NCBI GenBank assembly: GCA_021324885.1
Contig: JAJPIF010000001.1
Span: 62,001 to 126,000, forward strand
Source of the DNA: Pseudomonadota bacterium
GTDB lineage: Bacteria; Desulfobacterota; Binatia; Binatales; Binataceae
Reading direction: 5' to 3'
DNA: 64,000 nucleotides
This document shows positions 909-8,934 of this stretch, in pieces. Numbering within the stretch: position 1 is the first letter of the stretch; every line of letters begins with the position of its first letter. The notes under the pieces are model-generated. The model worked only from the letters and a program-made list of their open reading frames with translations, made no database searches and was not told the DNA's origin. The position numbers were made by a program, and so were the translations under genes.

Positions 909-3260
909 TCAGTTCACTCGCGCGCTCCAATTGCCCCGGTCGCCAGGAGGTTCTGACTGGAAACTGCCGCTCATGTCATCGCTGCGCCGCTGACCCTCGA
1001 AATAGAGCACCCTGCCGCCATATGGAACCTGGAACTCGATGTGATTGCCGCGGATGAAGCCGTCGATCGGTGTCAGGCCGTAACCGGACGCGTGAATTAC
1101 CAATTCTCCATGTAAAAAGCCATTGGGCTGCGGGCGCAACCGCAATTCGATCGGAATATTGTCGCTGCCGGCCAGGCCGTCGATACTTCCCTTGGCCACC
1201 GTGGGTGAGTCAAGGCTGGTGGGTGCGCCGCCGTAACCGCTGGAACTGGGCGCTGCCGGTAAACCGATCCCGGGGCTGAGACTGGCCGTCGTCGAGACGA
1301 CACGAAACCGTTTTTGCGCAAGGTATTGGCCGTTGAGATAAAAGTTGACGGTGTAAACGCCGGGCAAAAATGCATTCCCAGAAGAATTGCCGATCCGCCC
1401 GCTGAAACTGACTGTGCGGGCATTTTGCGGGACCATCCGCACGTCGTCGACGCTGCCCAACGTGTGACCGTCGGGCGCGATATAGGCGGCGTCCACCCGG
1501 TACTGATTCGTGTCCACCCCGTACAACCGGTTCTTAAAATCGACGTTCCAGCCAACGAACAAAACTTTGGATGCGTCGAAATCCCGGGTCGGACCTGACA
1601 GTGCGGTACCGCTCTTGGTGGTATTGCGAAATTGGATAGAAAGCAGTTCCAGTGGATGTTGACGGAGCAGGGCTATTCTGGCCAGGCGCTCCGCCTCGGC
1701 TTTGCGCGCCTCTTCCTCCGCGGTCTCGCGGGCTTTCTCCGCTGCTGCCGCCGCCTTGGCTTTCAATTCCGCATTGACGTCCTGGTCGATCGAAAACTGC
1801 TGCTCGGCAAGGAGATGGTCGTCGGAATAAAGCCCGACCTTATAATTGCCCAGCGGATGGTCGGTCAGAGACGGCATCAGCGCCACGCCGCTGAAATCAA
1901 CCTGCCTTTCCCCTGGTCCGACAAATCGGGAGGCGTCGCTGGAGGCGATTTGGAGCCCGTTCGGGTCGAAGAACTTCGCCTCGACCTTGTCACTGCGTCC
2001 CTCCAGCCCGGCCAATCGGTTCTTGAAAGTAGCCACCCACGACAGGTACTGGTCATTGGCAATCTCGGTATTGAGGAATTTGGCCCTGGGTTTGGACAGC
2101 GGTGTTCCCTCGCGCGTGGAAAGCTGCAAGGTCATTCGCTCGAACTGCAACGGATGCTCGCGTGCCTTTTCAACCAGTTCTTCGTGCTTCCAAGGCAGAC
2201 TGTCCACGAAGCTTTTGATTCCCAGTTGCTCCTGCAGGAGCGGGTTGGAGTAGATATAGGTGGCGCCGAAGGCCAGCGACCCCACCATGACCGTGAAAAT
2301 TAGAAACCCCAGCGCGCGGCGCAATCCGCTGCGCCGGCGCGGCGCCGGTAACGGGGTCGAGGTGACAACGCGCGTCAGGTCGGCAGTTCCGGTCCTGGGA
2401 CTGACGGCGATGGGCGCGCTGTCCAGTCCCGTGCCGTAGAGCATCATGTCGCGGAACTCGTCCACGCTCTGCGGCCTGCTCTCGACTTTGTAACCGAGCG
2501 CGCGATCGATAGCTCCGGCCAGATTCGGTGAAATACCGGGGCGCAGCGACTGAACGGGCGGAAAGCTGAAGGGTGGAAACTTCTCTGGGTCGCGGCCGGT
2601 CAGCACGTAATGCAGCGTCGCACCCAGCGAATAGATGTCGCTGCGCGGATCAACCTGTCCCTGATATTGCTCGGGCGGCGCAAAGCCCAGGGTGCCGATC
2701 ATCGTTCCCTTGCTCGCCACCTTGAATAGGCGCGCGATGCCGAAGTCGATCAGCATGACCTTGCCCCTGGGCGTAAGCATCACGTTGGAGGGCTTCATGT
2801 CGCGATAGACGATGGGAGGCGTAAAGCTGTGCAGATAGCTCAGCACTTCGCACAACTGGCGGGCGATATCAATTACGACCCCCTCATCCAGCGGATGGCC
2901 CAGCGCCGCCATCTCCTCTTCAAGGTTGCGGCCCTCGACGTACTCCATCACCAAATAATGGCGATTGGCCTGATCGAAACGGTCAGTGATTGCCGGTATT
3001 GAGGGATGGCGCAGTTGGGCGAGGGTGTCGGCCTCGCGGGCGAAGTATTCATTGGCGTCGCGCCGCTGCTGCGGGTCGATGAAGTGATCGACCATCTCCT
3101 TGATCGCGCAGGGCCGGTTGGCCAGACGCTGGTCCTGGGCGAGATAAACCACGCCCATGCCGCCGCCTCCAATCAGCTTCTGAATCAGATATCGCTTTTG
3201 CAGCACGGTACCGCTGGGAAGCGGTCCGGTCTGTGCGGCGGGCTGTGCGGAATCAGCCAT
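909..3260 (-). CDS. Receptor-type Ser/Thr protein kinase (PknB-like) with duplicated extracytoplasmic domain
   Basis: A 783-residue protein. The N-terminal Hanks-type kinase (about residues 20-275) has a glycine loop GGGGMG, ATP-site Lys54 (AIK), catalytic YRD at 152-154 with K156 and N159, DFG at 172-174 and APPE near 194, so it should be active. A proline/arginine linker precedes one TM helix (about 316-337). The extracytoplasmic part holds two related beta-rich domains: each has an aromatic-led strand ending in FKNRL (VATFKNRLAGL and VDFKNRLYGV), separated by an Ala/Glu/Lys/Arg coiled-coil-like stretch. A glycine-rich C-terminal beta domain follows. The start lies 3 bp after the stop of the PP2C-fusion gene, showing tight co-expression. 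Likely role: senses an envelope signal and phosphorylates FHA partners. The ligand is unknown. Confidence 0.9.
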   Translation of the reverse strand: MADSAQPAAQTGPLPSGTVLQKRYLIQKLIGGGGMGVVYLAQDQRLANRPCAIKEMVDHFIDPQQRRDANEYFAREADTLAQLRHPSIPAITDRFDQANRHYLVMEYVEGRNLEEEMAALGHPLDEGVVIDIARQLCEVLSYLHSFTPPIVYRDMKPSNVMLTPRGKVMLIDFGIARLFKVASKGTMIGTLGFAPPEQYQGQVDPRSDIYSLGATLHYVLTGRDPEKFPPFSFPPVQSLRPGISPNLAGAIDRALGYKVESRPQSVDEFRDMMLYGTGLDSAPIAVSPRTGTADLTRVVTSTPLPAPRRRSGLRRALGFLIFTVMVGSLAFGATYIYSNPLLQEQLGIKSFVDSLPWKHEELVEKAREHPLQFERMTLQLSTREGTPLSKPRAKFLNTEIANDQYLSWVATFKNRLAGLEGRSDKVEAKFFDPNGLQIASSDASRFVGPGERQVDFSGVALMPSLTDHPLGNYKVGLYSDDHLLAEQQFSIDQDVNAELKAKAAAAAEKARETAEEEARKAEAERLARIALLRQHPLELLSIQFRNTTKSGTALSGPTRDFDASKVLFVGWNVDFKNRLYGVDTNQYRVDAAYIAPDGHTLGSVDDVRMVPQNARTVSFSGRIGNSSGNAFLPGVYTVNFYLNGQYLAQKRFRVVSTTASLSPGIGLPAAPSSSGYGGAPTSLDSPTVAKGSIDGLAGSDNIPIELRLRPQPNGFLHGELVIHASGYGLTPIDGFIRGNHIEFQVPYGGRVLYFEGQRRSDDMSGSFQSEPPGDRGNWSARVN

Positions 3261-3263
3261 ACG

Positions 3264-5309
3264 TTATTCGGCGTTTATCACAATTACCGAGATATTGTCC
3301 GAGCCTCCTCCGGCATTCGCCGCCACCACCAGCTCCCGGCCAGCTTCCATCGGATCGTGCCGGCGCGCCAGGATTTCCGCGATGGCGGAATCCTCCACGT
3401 GAGCCATCAGTCCGTCGCTGCAAAGCAGCAGCCGATCTCCGCGCTTGAGCCGCAGCGTCATCGCTTCAGCACCCGCGGGCGCATTGGCGCGCGCGCCCAG
3501 GGAACGAGTGATCACATTTTTATGTTCATGATGGCGCGCCTGTTCGGGCGTGATTTGACCGATATCGACCAGGCGCTGAACCAACGAGTGATCCTTGGTG
3601 AGTTGGCGCAACTTTCCGCCCTCCAGCAGATAGGCCCGGCTGTCACCTACCCATGCAATCACAGCATCCGGGGGCGAGATCAGCGCGCTCACTGCAGTCG
3701 CCCCCATACCACGCGCTTCCGGGTGCTCCGTCTGATAGCCGATAATGTCGCGATGAGCCTGCTCGAGCGCCGACTGAAGGAGCTGCTCGCGCGAGCCGTT
3801 AACCGGCGGCGGCGTAACGGACTCCCTTTGAGCGCTGGCGCTGACATTGCTGCAAGCAACCCCACGCTCAACATAATACCTGATAGTCTCAACGGCAATC
3901 GCGCTGGCGGTTTCGCCCGCTTCAGCGCCACCCATCCCGTCGGAGACGACGTAAAGATAGTTGTAGGCGGGCGACACCTGCGAATCCTGCACCAGCTCCA
4001 CCGCCATCACCGAGTCTTCGTTGTGCTCGCGCACCATTCCGACGTCGGTGATACAGGCGGAGCGGATCCGCAACCGCGAATTAAGCTTGAGCAGTTCGGC
4101 TTTGAGCTGGTCCACCCCGGACCATCGATCGGCGGGTCTGAAGGCCAGGGCGCGCCGCACGATTTTCTCGAGGTCGGGCGAAACCACGTGAGGGGGATAG
4201 AACCGGATTGGACCGGCCTCTTCGCGCCAGCTCTCGCACTCGATGCGCTCCCCGGTCAGACATGTGTACAGGACGCAACCGATCGAAAACACGTCGGCGC
4301 GCTTGTCAACCTGCCGGGCACGATAAATCTCCGGCGCCGTATAACCATCGTTGAGAATAGGTTCGGCTTGAATTTCCGTATCGTTGCTCACGTAATCCAG
4401 GCTGATCAATTTGATCCGGCCATCGGCGCCGTAGGCCAGCGAGGTGGGGCAGATGTCGTTAACCCGCATGCCCCGATTGTGCAGATAAGAAACCGCCTGG
4501 CAAATCTGGATCGCAGCGCTCAATGCCTCGTGCTCAGCCATTGCGCCTGACCGCGACGAAAAGGGGCGCAGATCCTCGCCCGGATACACCAGGTAAACGC
4601 GTCCGTTCTCCGCAAAACCCTCCAACGCGCGATAGTATGCCGGATGGGTAATGATCTGCGACAGGGCGATCACGCGCTCAAACACTTCGCCCAAATCGGC
4701 GCGCGGAGCAGCCGGCGGTTCGACGATCGGCTCAGCACCCTCGGCAGCGTCTTCTGGCGGCGCGAGCTCCACGTCGTCCTGGATTTCCGCTTCGCCGGCC
4801 ACGCCATTAACGGCGGTCTGCGGCGTTGCGTCCTCAGCGATCGCGACGTCCGTATCGGCAGCGGGCTCGCCGCCTTCCGGCTCCGCCTTGACCTCCTGCA
4901 ATCCGTCAGCGGTTTGATCCGAAGGATTCGACGAAGCTGCCTGCGCCAGCGGCGGAAGTTCCCGAGTCTTGGCCTTTGGGCCGGCGGGATCCTCTTCCGC
5001 TGATGCCACCGTTTGCGGTTCTGCCTGAGGCGCGCTTTCCTCCGCCACCACCTCGGCAGCAGGTGCCACGCGCTCGCGCAGCATGAAGCGCTGGTTGGGA
5101 TCGTCGATGGCAATGGCGCGATAGCGATTTTCCTGGGAACTGCGGGCTATGACCTCGACGATCCTGAAGCGGCCTTGCAGCTCTTTGCCAACCTCGAGCG
5201 CTTCGAGAGCCACCACCGGCGGCGGGAGTTCATGCAGACCGCGGCCGCACTTGTCGCAAAAACGCGCATCGTCGGGTGCCGTCTGGCCGCAATCCGGACA
5301 TGTGATCAT
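3264..5309 (-). CDS. Zinc ribbon - pseudokinase - PP2C-type phosphatase fusion
   Basis: A 681-residue three-part protein. Residues 4-21 are a C4 zinc ribbon (Cys 4, 7, 18, 21). Residues ~40-405 have a protein-kinase fold interrupted by an acidic Ala/Pro/Glu linker (~84-205). Key residues are degenerate: the ATP-site lysine aligns with Arg78, the YRDxKPxN loop reads NDICPTS (Asp285 kept, Lys to Cys287, Asn to Ser290), and DFG is SLD (303-305); APE is kept at 325-327. Residues ~418-680 are a PP2C metallophosphatase with EHNEDS (428-433), SDGMGG (456-461), WVGDSRAY and a terminal GGGSDN, so the phosphatase looks intact. It overlaps the upstream kinase-FHA gene by 4 bp (ATGA). Likely reverses phosphorylation by the two flanking kinases, with the pseudokinase as regulator or substrate dock. 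Confidence 0.9.
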   Translation of the reverse strand: MITCPDCGQTAPDDARFCDKCGRGLHELPPPVVALEALEVGKELQGRFRIVEVIARSSQENRYRAIAIDDPNQRFMLRERVAPAAEVVAEESAPQAEPQTVASAEEDPAGPKAKTRELPPLAQAASSNPSDQTADGLQEVKAEPEGGEPAADTDVAIAEDATPQTAVNGVAGEAEIQDDVELAPPEDAAEGAEPIVEPPAAPRADLGEVFERVIALSQIITHPAYYRALEGFAENGRVYLVYPGEDLRPFSSRSGAMAEHEALSAAIQICQAVSYLHNRGMRVNDICPTSLAYGADGRIKLISLDYVSNDTEIQAEPILNDGYTAPEIYRARQVDKRADVFSIGCVLYTCLTGERIECESWREEAGPIRFYPPHVVSPDLEKIVRRALAFRPADRWSGVDQLKAELLKLNSRLRIRSACITDVGMVREHNEDSVMAVELVQDSQVSPAYNYLYVVSDGMGGAEAGETASAIAVETIRYYVERGVACSNVSASAQRESVTPPPVNGSREQLLQSALEQAHRDIIGYQTEHPEARGMGATAVSALISPPDAVIAWVGDSRAYLLEGGKLRQLTKDHSLVQRLVDIGQITPEQARHHEHKNVITRSLGARANAPAGAEAMTLRLKRGDRLLLCSDGLMAHVEDSAIAEILARRHDPMEAGRELVVAANAGGGSDNISVIVINAE

Positions 5310-6844
5310 GTTACTGCGCCTCTTCGAAACTCCAATGTTGCTCCGCCGATCACCACCTGGCAGCGGTCTTCCAATTTGTAGAGTTGATCGCGGCCCAGGC
5401 GCCCGCGGCCGGTGATGAACGTGCCGTTAAGGCTGCCGAGGTCGCGAATATAATAATCGTCGCCCCGTCGGATGATTTCAGCGTGGCGGCGCGACACACG
5501 ATCGGCGCCGACCTTTAGAACGCTCAAGTCGATATCAGCCTTGTTCGCGCTTGCCAGATTGCGCCCAACAATCGCTCTGTCACCGGTGATCGAAAACCGC
5601 AGCGGCTCGTTCTTGCAAATCAGGGTAACCGCCGGTTTGGCGGGTTGCGGCGCCGCCACTCCGTTGCGCGATGCCGTCTGAACAACCGCGGGACGCGAGA
5701 CCGGTGCCGGCGCGACTGCCTTGGCCACCGGCACCGGAGTCACCGGCCGAGCAGGGGCGTTGGCGACTGCCGGCCGCGCAGGAACGGGCGCCGGCGATGG
5801 CGGCCTGAGCTTGCCTTTGAGATCAGCGGTTTTGGCCGTGGGCGAAACCGCTGCTGACGAAACCGTAGGCGTTATCGGGGACGGTGCCCGAGCCGGTTCA
5901 TTTGCCGGGTGCGGCGGTGCAACCTTTCGGGCCGACGCCGGTACGTTGGCCAGTACCTGCGTGCGCATCGTGGCGATTGACGGTTCGCTCGCGGGCGCCG
6001 CTCCCCGCGGCAAAATCGCGGGCTCGCGACCGCCCTCGACAACGGGCAGCGCGTCGCGCATCTCGAGCGCCGATCCGGGCCGCTTGTTGGCGTCCTGTTC
6101 CAACGCCCACATCACCACCCGCTCCGTATCCACCGATACTTCGGGGGCGAGTTGCCTTACCGGGGGAAAGCTGAAAGGCGGTTCCAGTTGTGGGTCGCGC
6201 CCGGTCAGCAGATGATGCATCGTGGCGCCCAGCGAATAGAGATCCGAACGCGGCTCCAGTTTGCCCAGATACTGCTCAGGGGGCGCGTAGCCGACCGATC
6301 CGATTTGGGTGCCGCGCCCACCCGGCGGCAGAAAGCGCGCAATACCGAAATCGATAATCATCGCGCGCCCGTTCTGATCGATCATAATGTTGCCGGGCTT
6401 CAGATCGCGGTAAACGATAGGGGGATTTTGACTATGCAGAAAAGCCAGGACCTCGAGGATCTCACGCGCCCAGCGCACGACCTGGCTTTCCGGCACGCGC
6501 GCGCCAGCGCCCCGCTGGTCGAGCCATCCCTGGAGGTCGCCGCCGGCGATATATTCCATCACCAGGTAATGGCGTCCGCCCTCGGCGAAATAATCGATCA
6601 GGTTGGGGATTCCGGGATGGGACAGTGGGGCAAGCACGCGCGCTTCGCGGGCAAAATCCTCGACCGCTTTCTGCTCCTGGAGCCCCTGGCCAACGATCAT
6701 TTCCTTGACCGCAACCGGTCGGTTGGCCAGACGGGTGTCGTTGGCAAGATAGACGCGTCCCATGCCCCCGACTCCGATGACTTTACCGATTCGGTAGCGG
6801 CCGTCGAGCAGATGACCACTGGCAAGGGGCTCACCCGCTTTCAT
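5306..6844 (-). CDS. Cytoplasmic Ser/Thr protein kinase with C-terminal FHA domain
   Basis: A 512-residue protein. The kinase domain (about 14-270) has GVGGMG, Lys47 (VAVK), YRD at 145-147, DFG at 165-167 and APPE. It resembles the receptor kinase closely, sharing LANRP before the ATP-site lysine, LVMEY and SFPPV, so the two are probably duplicates. A long Pro/Ala/Val-rich unstructured linker (~280-400) leads to a canonical FHA domain (~405-510) with VGR, VSRRHAE and SLNGTF. No TM helix is visible, so it should be cytosolic. Having kinase and FHA in one chain suggests autophosphorylation-dependent oligomerisation or recruitment of phosphorylated partners; this is inference. Confidence 0.9.
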   Translation of the reverse strand: MKAGEPLASGHLLDGRYRIGKVIGVGGMGRVYLANDTRLANRPVAVKEMIVGQGLQEQKAVEDFAREARVLAPLSHPGIPNLIDYFAEGGRHYLVMEYIAGGDLQGWLDQRGAGARVPESQVVRWAREILEVLAFLHSQNPPIVYRDLKPGNIMIDQNGRAMIIDFGIARFLPPGGRGTQIGSVGYAPPEQYLGKLEPRSDLYSLGATMHHLLTGRDPQLEPPFSFPPVRQLAPEVSVDTERVVMWALEQDANKRPGSALEMRDALPVVEGGREPAILPRGAAPASEPSIATMRTQVLANVPASARKVAPPHPANEPARAPSPITPTVSSAAVSPTAKTADLKGKLRPPSPAPVPARPAVANAPARPVTPVPVAKAVAPAPVSRPAVVQTASRNGVAAPQPAKPAVTLICKNEPLRFSITGDRAIVGRNLASANKADIDLSVLKVGADRVSRRHAEIIRRGDDYYIRDLGSLNGTFITGRGRLGRDQLYKLEDRCQVVIGGATLEFRRGAVT

Positions 6845-6909: not shown

Positions 6910-7572
6910 CTACGAAACGGGTTCGATCACAACCTTCAGGAAGGTCTTGCCGATGATAATCTCGTCGCCGTCCTTGAGGTCCTGCGGGCTACCGACGGCC
7001 AGGCGCGGCTGTCGGTTCACGTAAGTGCCATTGAGGCTCCCGATGTCCTCGATCGTCAGCTTGTTACCGTCCACCCGGATCAGGGCGTGCTTGCGCGAGA
7101 TCTTGGCTTCAGGATCGTCGGCCTCGAGGTCCACTTCCGGAAAAGCTCCGGTCTCGGGGTCCCAACGGCCCACCAGGTTGTTGCCCACTTCAAGCGGGAA
7201 CTCATGTCCGGGGCGATTGCCTCCGCGGATCAGTTTCAGCTTTGCCTTGATCGCCGGAGCCGCAGCGGCGGGTGGCGGCGTTGCTGCGGGCGCTGGCTCG
7301 GTCGCAGTGGGCGTGGCCGCAGGAGTCTCAGCTGCCGGTTCGGGTTGAGCGCCGGCGGCGGACTCGACCGCTGCCGTTTCCCCAACCGCTGGCGGAGGAG
7401 TTTCAGGCGGCACCGCGCTGGGAGAAATCGGCGCCGTGGGAGCTTCGGGCGTGGACGGTGGCGGCGTTGATGAAGCTGCGGCGCCGTTGGTTGCGGCAAG
7501 TTTGGCGCCGCAGCTATCGCAATAGTCCAGACCGTCCATGTTTTCGTAGCCGCATTCGTTGCACTTGATCAT
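6910..7572 (-). CDS. Zinc-ribbon/FHA adaptor protein
   Basis: A 220-residue protein. Residues 4-21 form a C4 zinc ribbon with cysteines at 4, 7, 18 and 21, exactly the positions in the neighbouring PP2C fusion. A low-complexity Pro/Ala/Thr/Glu linker (~25-115) follows, then an FHA domain (~120-218) with VGR, ISRKHA and SLNGTY, so the phosphothreonine-binding residues are intact. No membrane segment or enzymatic domain is present. It lies between the kinase-FHA gene (65 bp downstream) and the VWA gene (78 bp upstream) on the same strand. Likely an adaptor that binds a threonine phosphorylated by the adjacent kinases, as GarA/OdhI-type FHA proteins do; its target is unknown. Confidence 0.88.
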   Translation of the reverse strand: MIKCNECGYENMDGLDYCDSCGAKLAATNGAAASSTPPPSTPEAPTAPISPSAVPPETPPPAVGETAAVESAAGAQPEPAAETPAATPTATEPAPAATPPPAAAAPAIKAKLKLIRGGNRPGHEFPLEVGNNLVGRWDPETGAFPEVDLEADDPEAKISRKHALIRVDGNKLTIEDIGSLNGTYVNRQPRLAVGSPQDLKDGDEIIIGKTFLKVVIEPVS

Positions 7573-7650: not shown

Positions 7651-8934
7651 CTATTGTTGTTTCAGCTCTTCCAGCATCTTGGGATCGAGCATTTGGGTTT
7701 TGCGCACGACCGCCTGCGCGTTGAGCAGGGTGGTCTTGGCCGCTTTGCCCTGCAGATTCTGCGTTTGCTGAATCTGATCCATGAAATTGGTCAGCGCCTG
7801 GGTCGCCTTTACGTTGCCCAGCCGCTGCGTACCCTGGATCGCGTTGCTCAGCAGGCGCGTTGCCCGGTCGACATTGCCCGCCTTCAGCTCCTCTTCCGCC
7901 TTGGTTTGCAGCTTCGCGATCGACACCTGATCGACGAGGTTCATGACCCGGCCGTTAACCTTGCTGGTCAGCGCCCGGTCCAGCGTGTAATCGATAGTAA
8001 TGTCGGCCGCTACGGACTGTTCGTCGGAGCCGGGAACCTGGTAATGGAAACTGGTTTGACCAATCCGCACCGCTCCGGGTTTACGCGGCGGCAGCACCAA
8101 GGTGATTAATACTGAAGCCGGCACCCCGGCTTCAAGGTCTCCGACCTGGTAGCTGATGCGTCGATCGGCGTCGACCAGCGGCTCCCCCAAGGGATAAATT
8201 TCCGGACTGGCGCGGAACGCCTCGCGAATCTGGACACCTTGCGACAAGACCAGATCGATCCGGCCGTTGCGCACCGAAACCGCGCGCAAACCGGTCAGCT
8301 CGTCCTCGAAAATTCCCGGAATTTCGGCGGAGTCGCCGATGAAGTGATATTTTCCGCCGGAATCCTGCGAGATCCGCATCAGCAGCTTTTCATTGAACTC
8401 GACTCCAACTCCCATCGCCGAGAACTGGATGTCCGGGTTCTGGCGAACCAGGTCGATACAAGCCATCTCTTCGTAAGTCTGGCCGTCGGTCAGCACCAGA
8501 ACGCGATTGAGCCGTTGCGGCGTCAGGTTCTTGCGAACCTCATCGATAGCAGCGCGCATCCCTAAGGCCATCTGGGTCCCACCGCCGATTTCGAGCAGGT
8601 CGATATCGTCGATCGCCCGCTTGGTTCCGGCCTTGTCGGTGGCGGCTCCGGAGGTCAATACCTGCGCCTTGTCGGCGAAAGCGACAATTGCGACTTTGTC
8701 GTCGGGATTGAGATTATCGACCAGGAACTTGACAGCTTCGACGACGAATTCCAATCGGCGCTCGTCGTACATCGAACCGGAACGATCCAGCACGACCCCG
8801 AGATTAAGCGGGAGGCGGGCGCCAGCTCCGCTTTGGGCAATTGCTTCGAGCAGCACGTACAGAACGAAATTTTCCGCGCTGGACAAGACATGCTCGCGGC
8901 TGGGCAAGGCTTGGAAAGTGAGCGGTTGGGCCAT
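7651..8934 (-). CDS. VWA-domain protein with complete MIDAS
   Basis: A 427-residue protein and the first gene of the minus-strand signalling island. The VWA domain (about 43-225) has the metal-ion-dependent adhesion site DRSGSM (Asp50, Ser52, Ser54), a GGGTQM threonine and VLTDGQ. A beta-rich region (about 225-335) and a helical tail containing LKAGNVDRATRLL complete it. No signal peptide or TM segment is visible, so it is cytosolic. An AAAGGGG-like Shine-Dalgarno stretch precedes the ATG. VWA proteins encoded beside PP2C and Ser/Thr kinases are known from TerY-P-type triads; here the VWA would be a metal-dependent scaffold or phosphorylation target. That role is inferred from context. Confidence 0.88.
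   Translation of the reverse strand: MAQPLTFQALPSREHVLSSAENFVLYVLLEAIAQSGAGARLPLNLGVVLDRSGSMYDERRLEFVVEAVKFLVDNLNPDDKVAIVAFADKAQVLTSGAATDKAGTKRAIDDIDLLEIGGGTQMALGMRAAIDEVRKNLTPQRLNRVLVLTDGQTYEEMACIDLVRQNPDIQFSAMGVGVEFNEKLLMRISQDSGGKYHFIGDSAEIPGIFEDELTGLRAVSVRNGRIDLVLSQGVQIREAFRASPEIYPLGEPLVDADRRISYQVGDLEAGVPASVLITLVLPPRKPGAVRIGQTSFHYQVPGSDEQSVAADITIDYTLDRALTSKVNGRVMNLVDQVSIAKLQTKAEEELKAGNVDRATRLLSNAIQGTQRLGNVKATQALTNFMDQIQQTQNLQGKAAKTTLLNAQAVVRKTQMLDPKMLEELKQQ

Follow-up and report, generated by a model that had tools for sequence, protein, structure and literature searches.

In this work we have analysed a window of 64,000 nucleotides (the whole stretch of DNA examined, within which all positions below are counted) from a 4.5-Mb genome of Candidatus Binataceae, a family of Binatota bacteria living in soil. 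An operon on its minus strand is best read as a bacterial relative of the ArnA/ArnB module of Sulfolobus, with its own kinases and with a zinc ribbon-pseudokinase-PP2C fusion protein as its phosphatase. With a probability of roughly 0.6, we propose that this fusion is the eraser phosphatase of an ArnA/ArnB-like phospho-switch, docked via its pseudokinase and via a phosphorylated threonine, Thr115. The operon runs in the order vWA protein, zinc-ribbon FHA protein, kinase-FHA protein, fusion and transmembrane kinase; the stop of the kinase-FHA gene overlaps the start of the fusion by 4 bases and the next gene begins 3 bases past the fusion stop. The features of the operon are as follows.

909-3260, minus strand: kinase whose catalytic motifs are intact, with a linker followed by a hydrophobic, membrane-like segment (Pfam Pkinase, 131.6 bits; syntenic orthologs), here called the transmembrane kinase
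2376-2390, minus strand: GTADL (Thr292), a T-x-x-L motif after the kinase domain of the transmembrane kinase
3264-5309, minus strand: zinc ribbon-pseudokinase-PP2C fusion, 681 aa (open reading frame, Pfam, orthologs)
3270-4073, minus strand: PP2C phosphatase domain of the fusion, five metal-binding Asp intact (D432, D457, D556, D632, D671)
4080-4697, minus strand: pseudokinase helix C and C-lobe, with NDICPxS for HRDLKPxN and SLD/GLD for DFG
4707-5054, minus strand: disordered, hypervariable insert of about 115 aa (residues 86-201) between beta3 and helix C
4956-4991, minus strand: conserved motif DPAGPKAKTREL in the insert, with Thr115 as the proposed phosphorylation site
5058-5192, minus strand: pseudokinase N-lobe, where ENRYRA replaces the G-loop and Arg78 the beta3 Lys
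5238-5300, minus strand: N-terminal zinc ribbon with four Cys (C4, C7, C18, C21), all invariant
5306-6844, minus strand: active-type kinase with a C-terminal FHA domain (Pfam)
5819-5836, minus strand: AKTADL (Thr339) in the kinase-FHA linker
6910-7572, minus strand: zinc-ribbon FHA protein, ArnA-like (Pfam FHA; PDB ArnA 5a8i, E 1.3e-12, residues 3-190)
7651-8934, minus strand: vWA protein, ArnB-like (Pfam VWA; PDB 8s05 chain A, E 5.5e-12, residues 46-382)
7687-7743, minus strand: tandem KTxxL motifs (AKTTLL, RKTQML; Thr401, Thr413) in the C-terminal tail of the vWA protein

All Binataceae loci with sufficient flanking sequence share the five-gene order, and the fusion is present in 39 of the 41 Binataceae genomes searched, the two without it being assemblies in 260-430 contigs. 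A second Binatia family encodes a version that is 45-46% identical over the matched part, in the four-gene order vWA, zinc-FHA, fusion, kinase; the kinase-FHA gene was not found elsewhere in these genomes, where the best matches fall on the other operon kinase. Both families are known here from metagenome-assembled records alone. The fusion was not found in the rest of the class as sampled, and within the class the vWA gene and the fusion are distributed almost identically, genera g44 and g48 of the second family having neither. Weaker matches elsewhere in the phylum (L050-L053) were rejected as fusions, since they are separate, adjacent genes for an active kinase and a PP2C. The window's own genome also has, on contig 16 (L002, L004), a separate active kinase gene beside a single-domain PP2C gene.

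The original prediction had described the fusion as a zinc ribbon, a kinase-like region and a PP2C domain, and this order is borne out by the open reading frame and by matches to Zn_Ribbon_1 at residues 4-24 (26.0 bits, cut-off 25), Pkinase at residues 217-397 (60.1 bits, cut-off 31.7) and PP2C at residues 444-673. The match lacks the first 51 positions of the Pfam kinase model because the insert splits the N-lobe. In a full-length AlphaFold2 model, built with 16 aligned sequences, the N-lobe strands lie at residues 48-56, 61-67 and 74-81 and helix C at 207-219, followed by the C-lobe to residue 410 and then by PP2C. Phosphatases occupied the top 50 Foldseek matches of the whole model throughout, for which reason the kinase part was modelled and searched on its own. 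For residues 36-412 the best match was PknB of M. tuberculosis (5u94; E 5.4e-12), and the VIA comparison with PknB gave a Z of 25.2 over 245 residues at 3.2 A and 23% identity. The kinase half is predicted to have a bilobal Hanks-type kinase fold, on which the profile score and the structural match agree, and residues 40-405, the region originally named as kinase-like, fold as a kinase as far as prediction reaches.

Judged by its residues, the kinase half is a pseudokinase throughout Candidatus Binataceae and also in the second Binatia family. The losses that had been predicted all stand, and they are fixed. Arg78 takes the place of the ATP-site (beta3, VAIK) Lys in 37/37 Binataceae sequences. 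The catalytic loop reads xNDICPxS in all 37, with Cys287 at the Lys and Ser290 (Ser or Ala) at the Asn position. Ser303-Leu304-Asp305 sit at DFG, where the 37 sequences show S/G-L-D/E, position 305 being Asp or Glu in every one. Also in accordance with the original prediction, A325-P326-E327 (APE) is kept and is invariant in the 37, as is the helix-F Asp. The analysis adds three features: the catalytic-loop Asp285 is kept and invariant in the same set, an ENRYRA-like stretch, in which E60, N61 and Y63 are invariant, stands in for the glycine loop, and a disordered insert of about 115 residues lies in the N-lobe. All 37 family members lack the VAIK Lys, HRDxKxxN and DFG Asp by which an active Hanks kinase is recognised. 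In the second family the catalytic loop has Pro at the Lys position and, in 4/5 sequences, Glu at the position of Asp285; position 78 is Arg or Ala (Ala in 3/5), and DFG is again lost. With the same losses fixed in 37 Binataceae sequences and written in other letters in the 5 of the second family, they are, as a sequence pattern, far beyond chance.

Could the kinase half nevertheless use an unusual active site to transfer phosphate or AMP, which would make the fusion a bifunctional enzyme? Asp285 is invariant, Arg78 and Asp/Glu305 could form the Arg-Asp pair proposed for the DYD pseudokinases, and SidJ and SelO are pseudokinases with other activities (PMC12599244). However, the beta3 Lys, the loop Lys and Asn, the DFG Asp and the glycine loop are all lost together, and the second family dispenses with Asp285 (Glu in 4/5) and with Arg78 (Ala in 3/5). 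We consider bifunctionality very improbable, and catalysis by the kinase half is very unlikely. Perhaps it binds nucleotide without catalysis, as the invariant Asp285 and the possible Arg78-Asp305 pairing, which resemble the DYD proposal, may indicate. The fusion shares the beta3 Arg of the DYD family but has GLD or SLD instead of DYD. CP1 pseudokinases are fused to COG3899, and no COG3899 domain was among the Pfam matches of the fusion, which has PP2C instead. Nor do the signatures of GLW (GLW for HRD) and ActPs2 (Asn for the HRD Asp) match NDICP, these families of the 42-family scheme being compared by their description in a review. Origin of the pseudokinase by duplication of a neighbouring kinase was also considered but is not supported: in the tree all Binatia pseudokinases fall together (98/95), separate from the two neighbour kinases, on a long stem that does not point to a particular source.

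To our knowledge, almost no bacterial pseudokinase has an assigned function. In the Binataceae mean identity is 69% in the C-lobe, 70% in PP2C and 25% in the insert. The C-lobe is conserved like the phosphatase and far above the insert, and the pseudokinase is therefore under selection rather than decaying; this conservation is a strong argument against decay and implies that the role is non-catalytic. The original prediction had suggested that a dead kinase fused to a phosphatase serves substrate docking or allosteric control. This remains plausible and is strengthened by the conservation of the C-lobe, but the setting in an ArnA/ArnB-like operon gives a more specific reading, in which the threonine motif of the insert is as likely to be the docking element as is the kinase fold itself.

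Relatives of the module were also found outside the phylum. A conjugative Nostoc plasmid (L134, plasmid3) encodes vWA, zinc-FHA, fusion and kinase proteins, and Deinococcus plasmids (L135-L137) encode kinase, FHA and fusion proteins, with the vWA gene adjoining in D. radiodurans. Given these plasmid locations, one of them conjugative, the module may be mobile. The PP2C proteins of Nostoc and Deinococcus (BAY80452.1, WP_010889593.1) resemble that of the window in having a kinase-like region before PP2C and in belonging to a vWA-FHA-kinase operon, but they lack the zinc ribbon and are 24-27% identical. Their kinase-like region gave no Pfam kinase match and is more eroded; it aligns with the Binatia pseudokinase in hhalign (98.3%, E 1.6e-14). 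A Chloroflexi locus also encodes a zinc ribbon-pseudokinase-PP2C protein. Adjoining it and several active kinases is a PP2C protein (L068:10344-11918) which follows a kinase N-lobe remnant only, with a second zinc ribbon inserted before the beta3-like LLLERE. The eroded region in Nostoc and Deinococcus, like this remnant, would fit an evolutionary relic which the phosphatase simply carries along. In the Binatia families, by contrast, the C-lobe is as conserved as PP2C and has many invariant family-specific residues, which argues strongly against a relic, and we give this explanation hardly any credence.

The PP2C half keeps SDGMGG and SDN, as had been predicted, and it looks like an active PP2C (PPM) phosphatase with a complete active site. 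Aligned to tPphA, its D432, D457, D556, D632 and D671 fall on positions which we take to be metal ligands, and these residues and Arg427 are invariant in 42 sequences. The closest solved fold is PstP (1txo; Foldseek E 1.6e-21, TM 0.91 by target length), and the NCBIfam equivalog NF033484 (Stp1/IreP) scores 229.7 bits against a cut-off of 230. PRK14559 (NF011149), a serine/threonine phosphatase of 642 aa, is likewise a long protein that ends in PP2C, but its PP2C part alone aligns with the fusion (119 bits, cut-off 374).

The insert has a pLDDT under 50 and is hypervariable, apart from a run of about twelve residues, DPxGPxAKTx[ED]L. Ala113, Thr115 and Leu118 are invariant in 37/37 Binataceae sequences; every one of these fits A-(K/P)-T-x-(E/D)-L, and 35/37 have AKTx[ED]L unbroken. 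When the inserts were shuffled, T-x-[ED]-L arose in 5% of cases, and for AKTx[ED]L the figure was 0.04%. The second Binatia family has neither the insert nor the kinase-FHA gene, and the insert motif occurs only where the kinase-FHA exists, a co-occurrence which amounts to one evolutionary contrast. Most likely, Thr115 becomes phosphorylated and an FHA domain recognises it, so that the phosphatase is docked onto the complex which it resets.

It may instead be that the pseudokinase works without the insert motif, as an allosteric or dimerisation domain which sets the state of PP2C through contact with an active kinase, in the manner of PknB and MviN, Thr115 being just a phosphorylation site that tunes it. 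The second family keeps pseudokinase and PP2C without the insert, and therefore the core function cannot need Thr115; moreover, the C-lobe and segment 353-378 are strongly conserved (75% within the family, 44% between families). What such a domain leaves unexplained, however, is one invariant motif in a hypervariable insert and its recurrence in the kinase-FHA protein. We regard this alternative as unlikely and prefer docking via both the pseudokinase and phospho-Thr115.

Similar threonine motifs are found on the other proteins of the operon. The Thr and the Leu at +3 are invariant in the insert (37/37 rows), in the kinase-FHA linker (39/39, all [KR]-T-x-[ED]-L), in the transmembrane-kinase linker (48/48, mostly GT(A/G)xL in 42 Binataceae rows and ATxxL in 6 second-family rows) and in the vWA tail (23/23, both families), these rows being related sequences, some from genomes in two collections, so that the counts are not independent. 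The Thr is never Ser in Binatota rows, as expected if FHA domains, which bind phosphothreonine specifically (PMC3953482), read these sites. The vWA C-terminus also carries three tandem KTxx[LIM] motifs in Nostoc (L134:450-1844) and Deinococcus (L154), with shuffle P of 0.0004 and 0.00005, respectively. No clear T-x-x-L motif is present in the zinc-FHA protein of the window itself or of the second family. In most Binataceae zinc-FHA orthologs the linker contains PTGE[IL], which is absent from the window protein and its nearest relative.

As a pattern T-x-x-L is loose, and its flanks differ between the proteins (AKTx[ED]L, GTADL, KTQxL), as they might if these were independent kinase sites or protein-docking sites with no shared code read by FHA domains. 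Against independence, the Thr is strict and the +3 residue always Leu in Binatota, tandem copies recur in the vWA tails of three phyla, and at least one FHA protein is encoded in each operon with enough flank. We find independent sites rather doubtful. Taken together, the similar tags suggest, at the level of sequence, a self-contained phosphorylation switch related to the archaeal one. A stricter version, to which we give somewhat less than an even chance, would be a closed phosphothreonine code in which kinases, phosphatase and vWA protein are all T-x-x-L-tagged for shared FHA domains, the pseudokinase having gained its tag by the insert in step with the kinase-FHA gene and the phosphatase being recruited by the very mark that it erases. 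Across the whole genome AKTx[ED]L occurs at 15 places, compared with 7 for the reversed pattern, and outside the operon none lies in the linker of a signalling protein; we therefore claim no client. No gene neighbouring the module points to one output, and nothing suggests a role in defence, as the PADLOC hits (PD-T4-6, mad6 and others) reflect generic similarity between kinases.

In Sulfolobus, ArnC phosphorylates Thr residues in the C-terminus of ArnB, the FHA domain of ArnA then binds tightly, and PP2A reverses the association (PMC6509490, PMC12852372, PMC7472852). The window resembles this system in its adjacent zinc-FHA and vWA genes, whose sequence matches extend over several domains, in its dedicated Hanks kinases (ArnC and ArnD in Sulfolobus), in the Thr residues of the vWA C-terminus and, by its proposed role, in a phosphatase which reverses the complex. 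It differs in that its operon encodes, in the place of PP2A, a PP2C which forms one protein with a zinc ribbon and a pseudokinase, that one kinase has its own FHA domain and that T-x-x-L is also found on the kinases and the phosphatase. The motifs themselves are not identical either: the ArnB tail carries TRRI, TRRI and TRKI, part of them phosphorylated, and of T353 and T363, the sites at which ArnB was phosphorylated in experiments (PMC12852372), T353 has R at +3 and does not fit T-x-x-L.

On this basis we propose the following sequence of events. The operon kinases would phosphorylate the T-x-x-L threonines in the vWA tail and in the linkers of the kinases themselves, as well as Thr115 of the pseudokinase, and the FHA domains would read these phosphothreonines and so assemble the components. 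In the Binataceae, an FHA domain would bind phospho-Thr115 and so keep the phosphatase on the complex; the likeliest candidate is the FHA domain of the adjacent kinase-FHA protein. The dead kinase would be a non-catalytic docking or regulatory domain acting through its conserved C-lobe face, a role suggested by conservation. Finally, PP2C would strip the phosphates and the complex would dissolve.

The TerY-phosphorylation triad consists of a TerY-type vWA protein, a kinase and a PP2C; the vWA-TerF-like model scored 26.8 bits here, under its cut-off of 29.4. Several known systems share parts of the arrangement described here. The composite proteins of Pseudomonas (BMC Genomics 2005, PMC1262709) also combine PP2C and kinase in one polypeptide, but they begin with PP2C and their kinase domain is reported as a kinase, whereas the fusion in the window has the opposite order and a dead kinase. 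MviN of Mycobacterium (ActPs3; PMC12599244) is a bacterial pseudokinase in which a phosphorylated flexible segment recruits an FHA protein, as we propose for the fusion; however, it is a membrane protein without a phosphatase fusion, and the flexible segment is a C-terminal tail rather than an N-lobe insert. In the Fha-PpkA-PppA system of type VI secretion, a kinase, a PP2C and an FHA reader act on one phosphothreonine, as we propose here, but that system regulates a secretion apparatus and, as described, has no ArnB-type vWA protein or pseudokinase (PMC3953482). Kinase-PP2C fusions, bacterial pseudokinases and FHA-phosphothreonine switches are each already known; in the literature searched, which covers the field in part, we found no report of their combination, of the ArnAB-like operon setting or of the shared tag.

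A pseudokinase fixed in an operon of defined partners offers a testable site, Thr115, and a testable reader. Nostoc and Deinococcus are tractable hosts in which to ask what the module controls. If our reading is true, the archaeal ArnA/ArnB switch would extend to bacteria, where it would have gained a phosphatase of its own.
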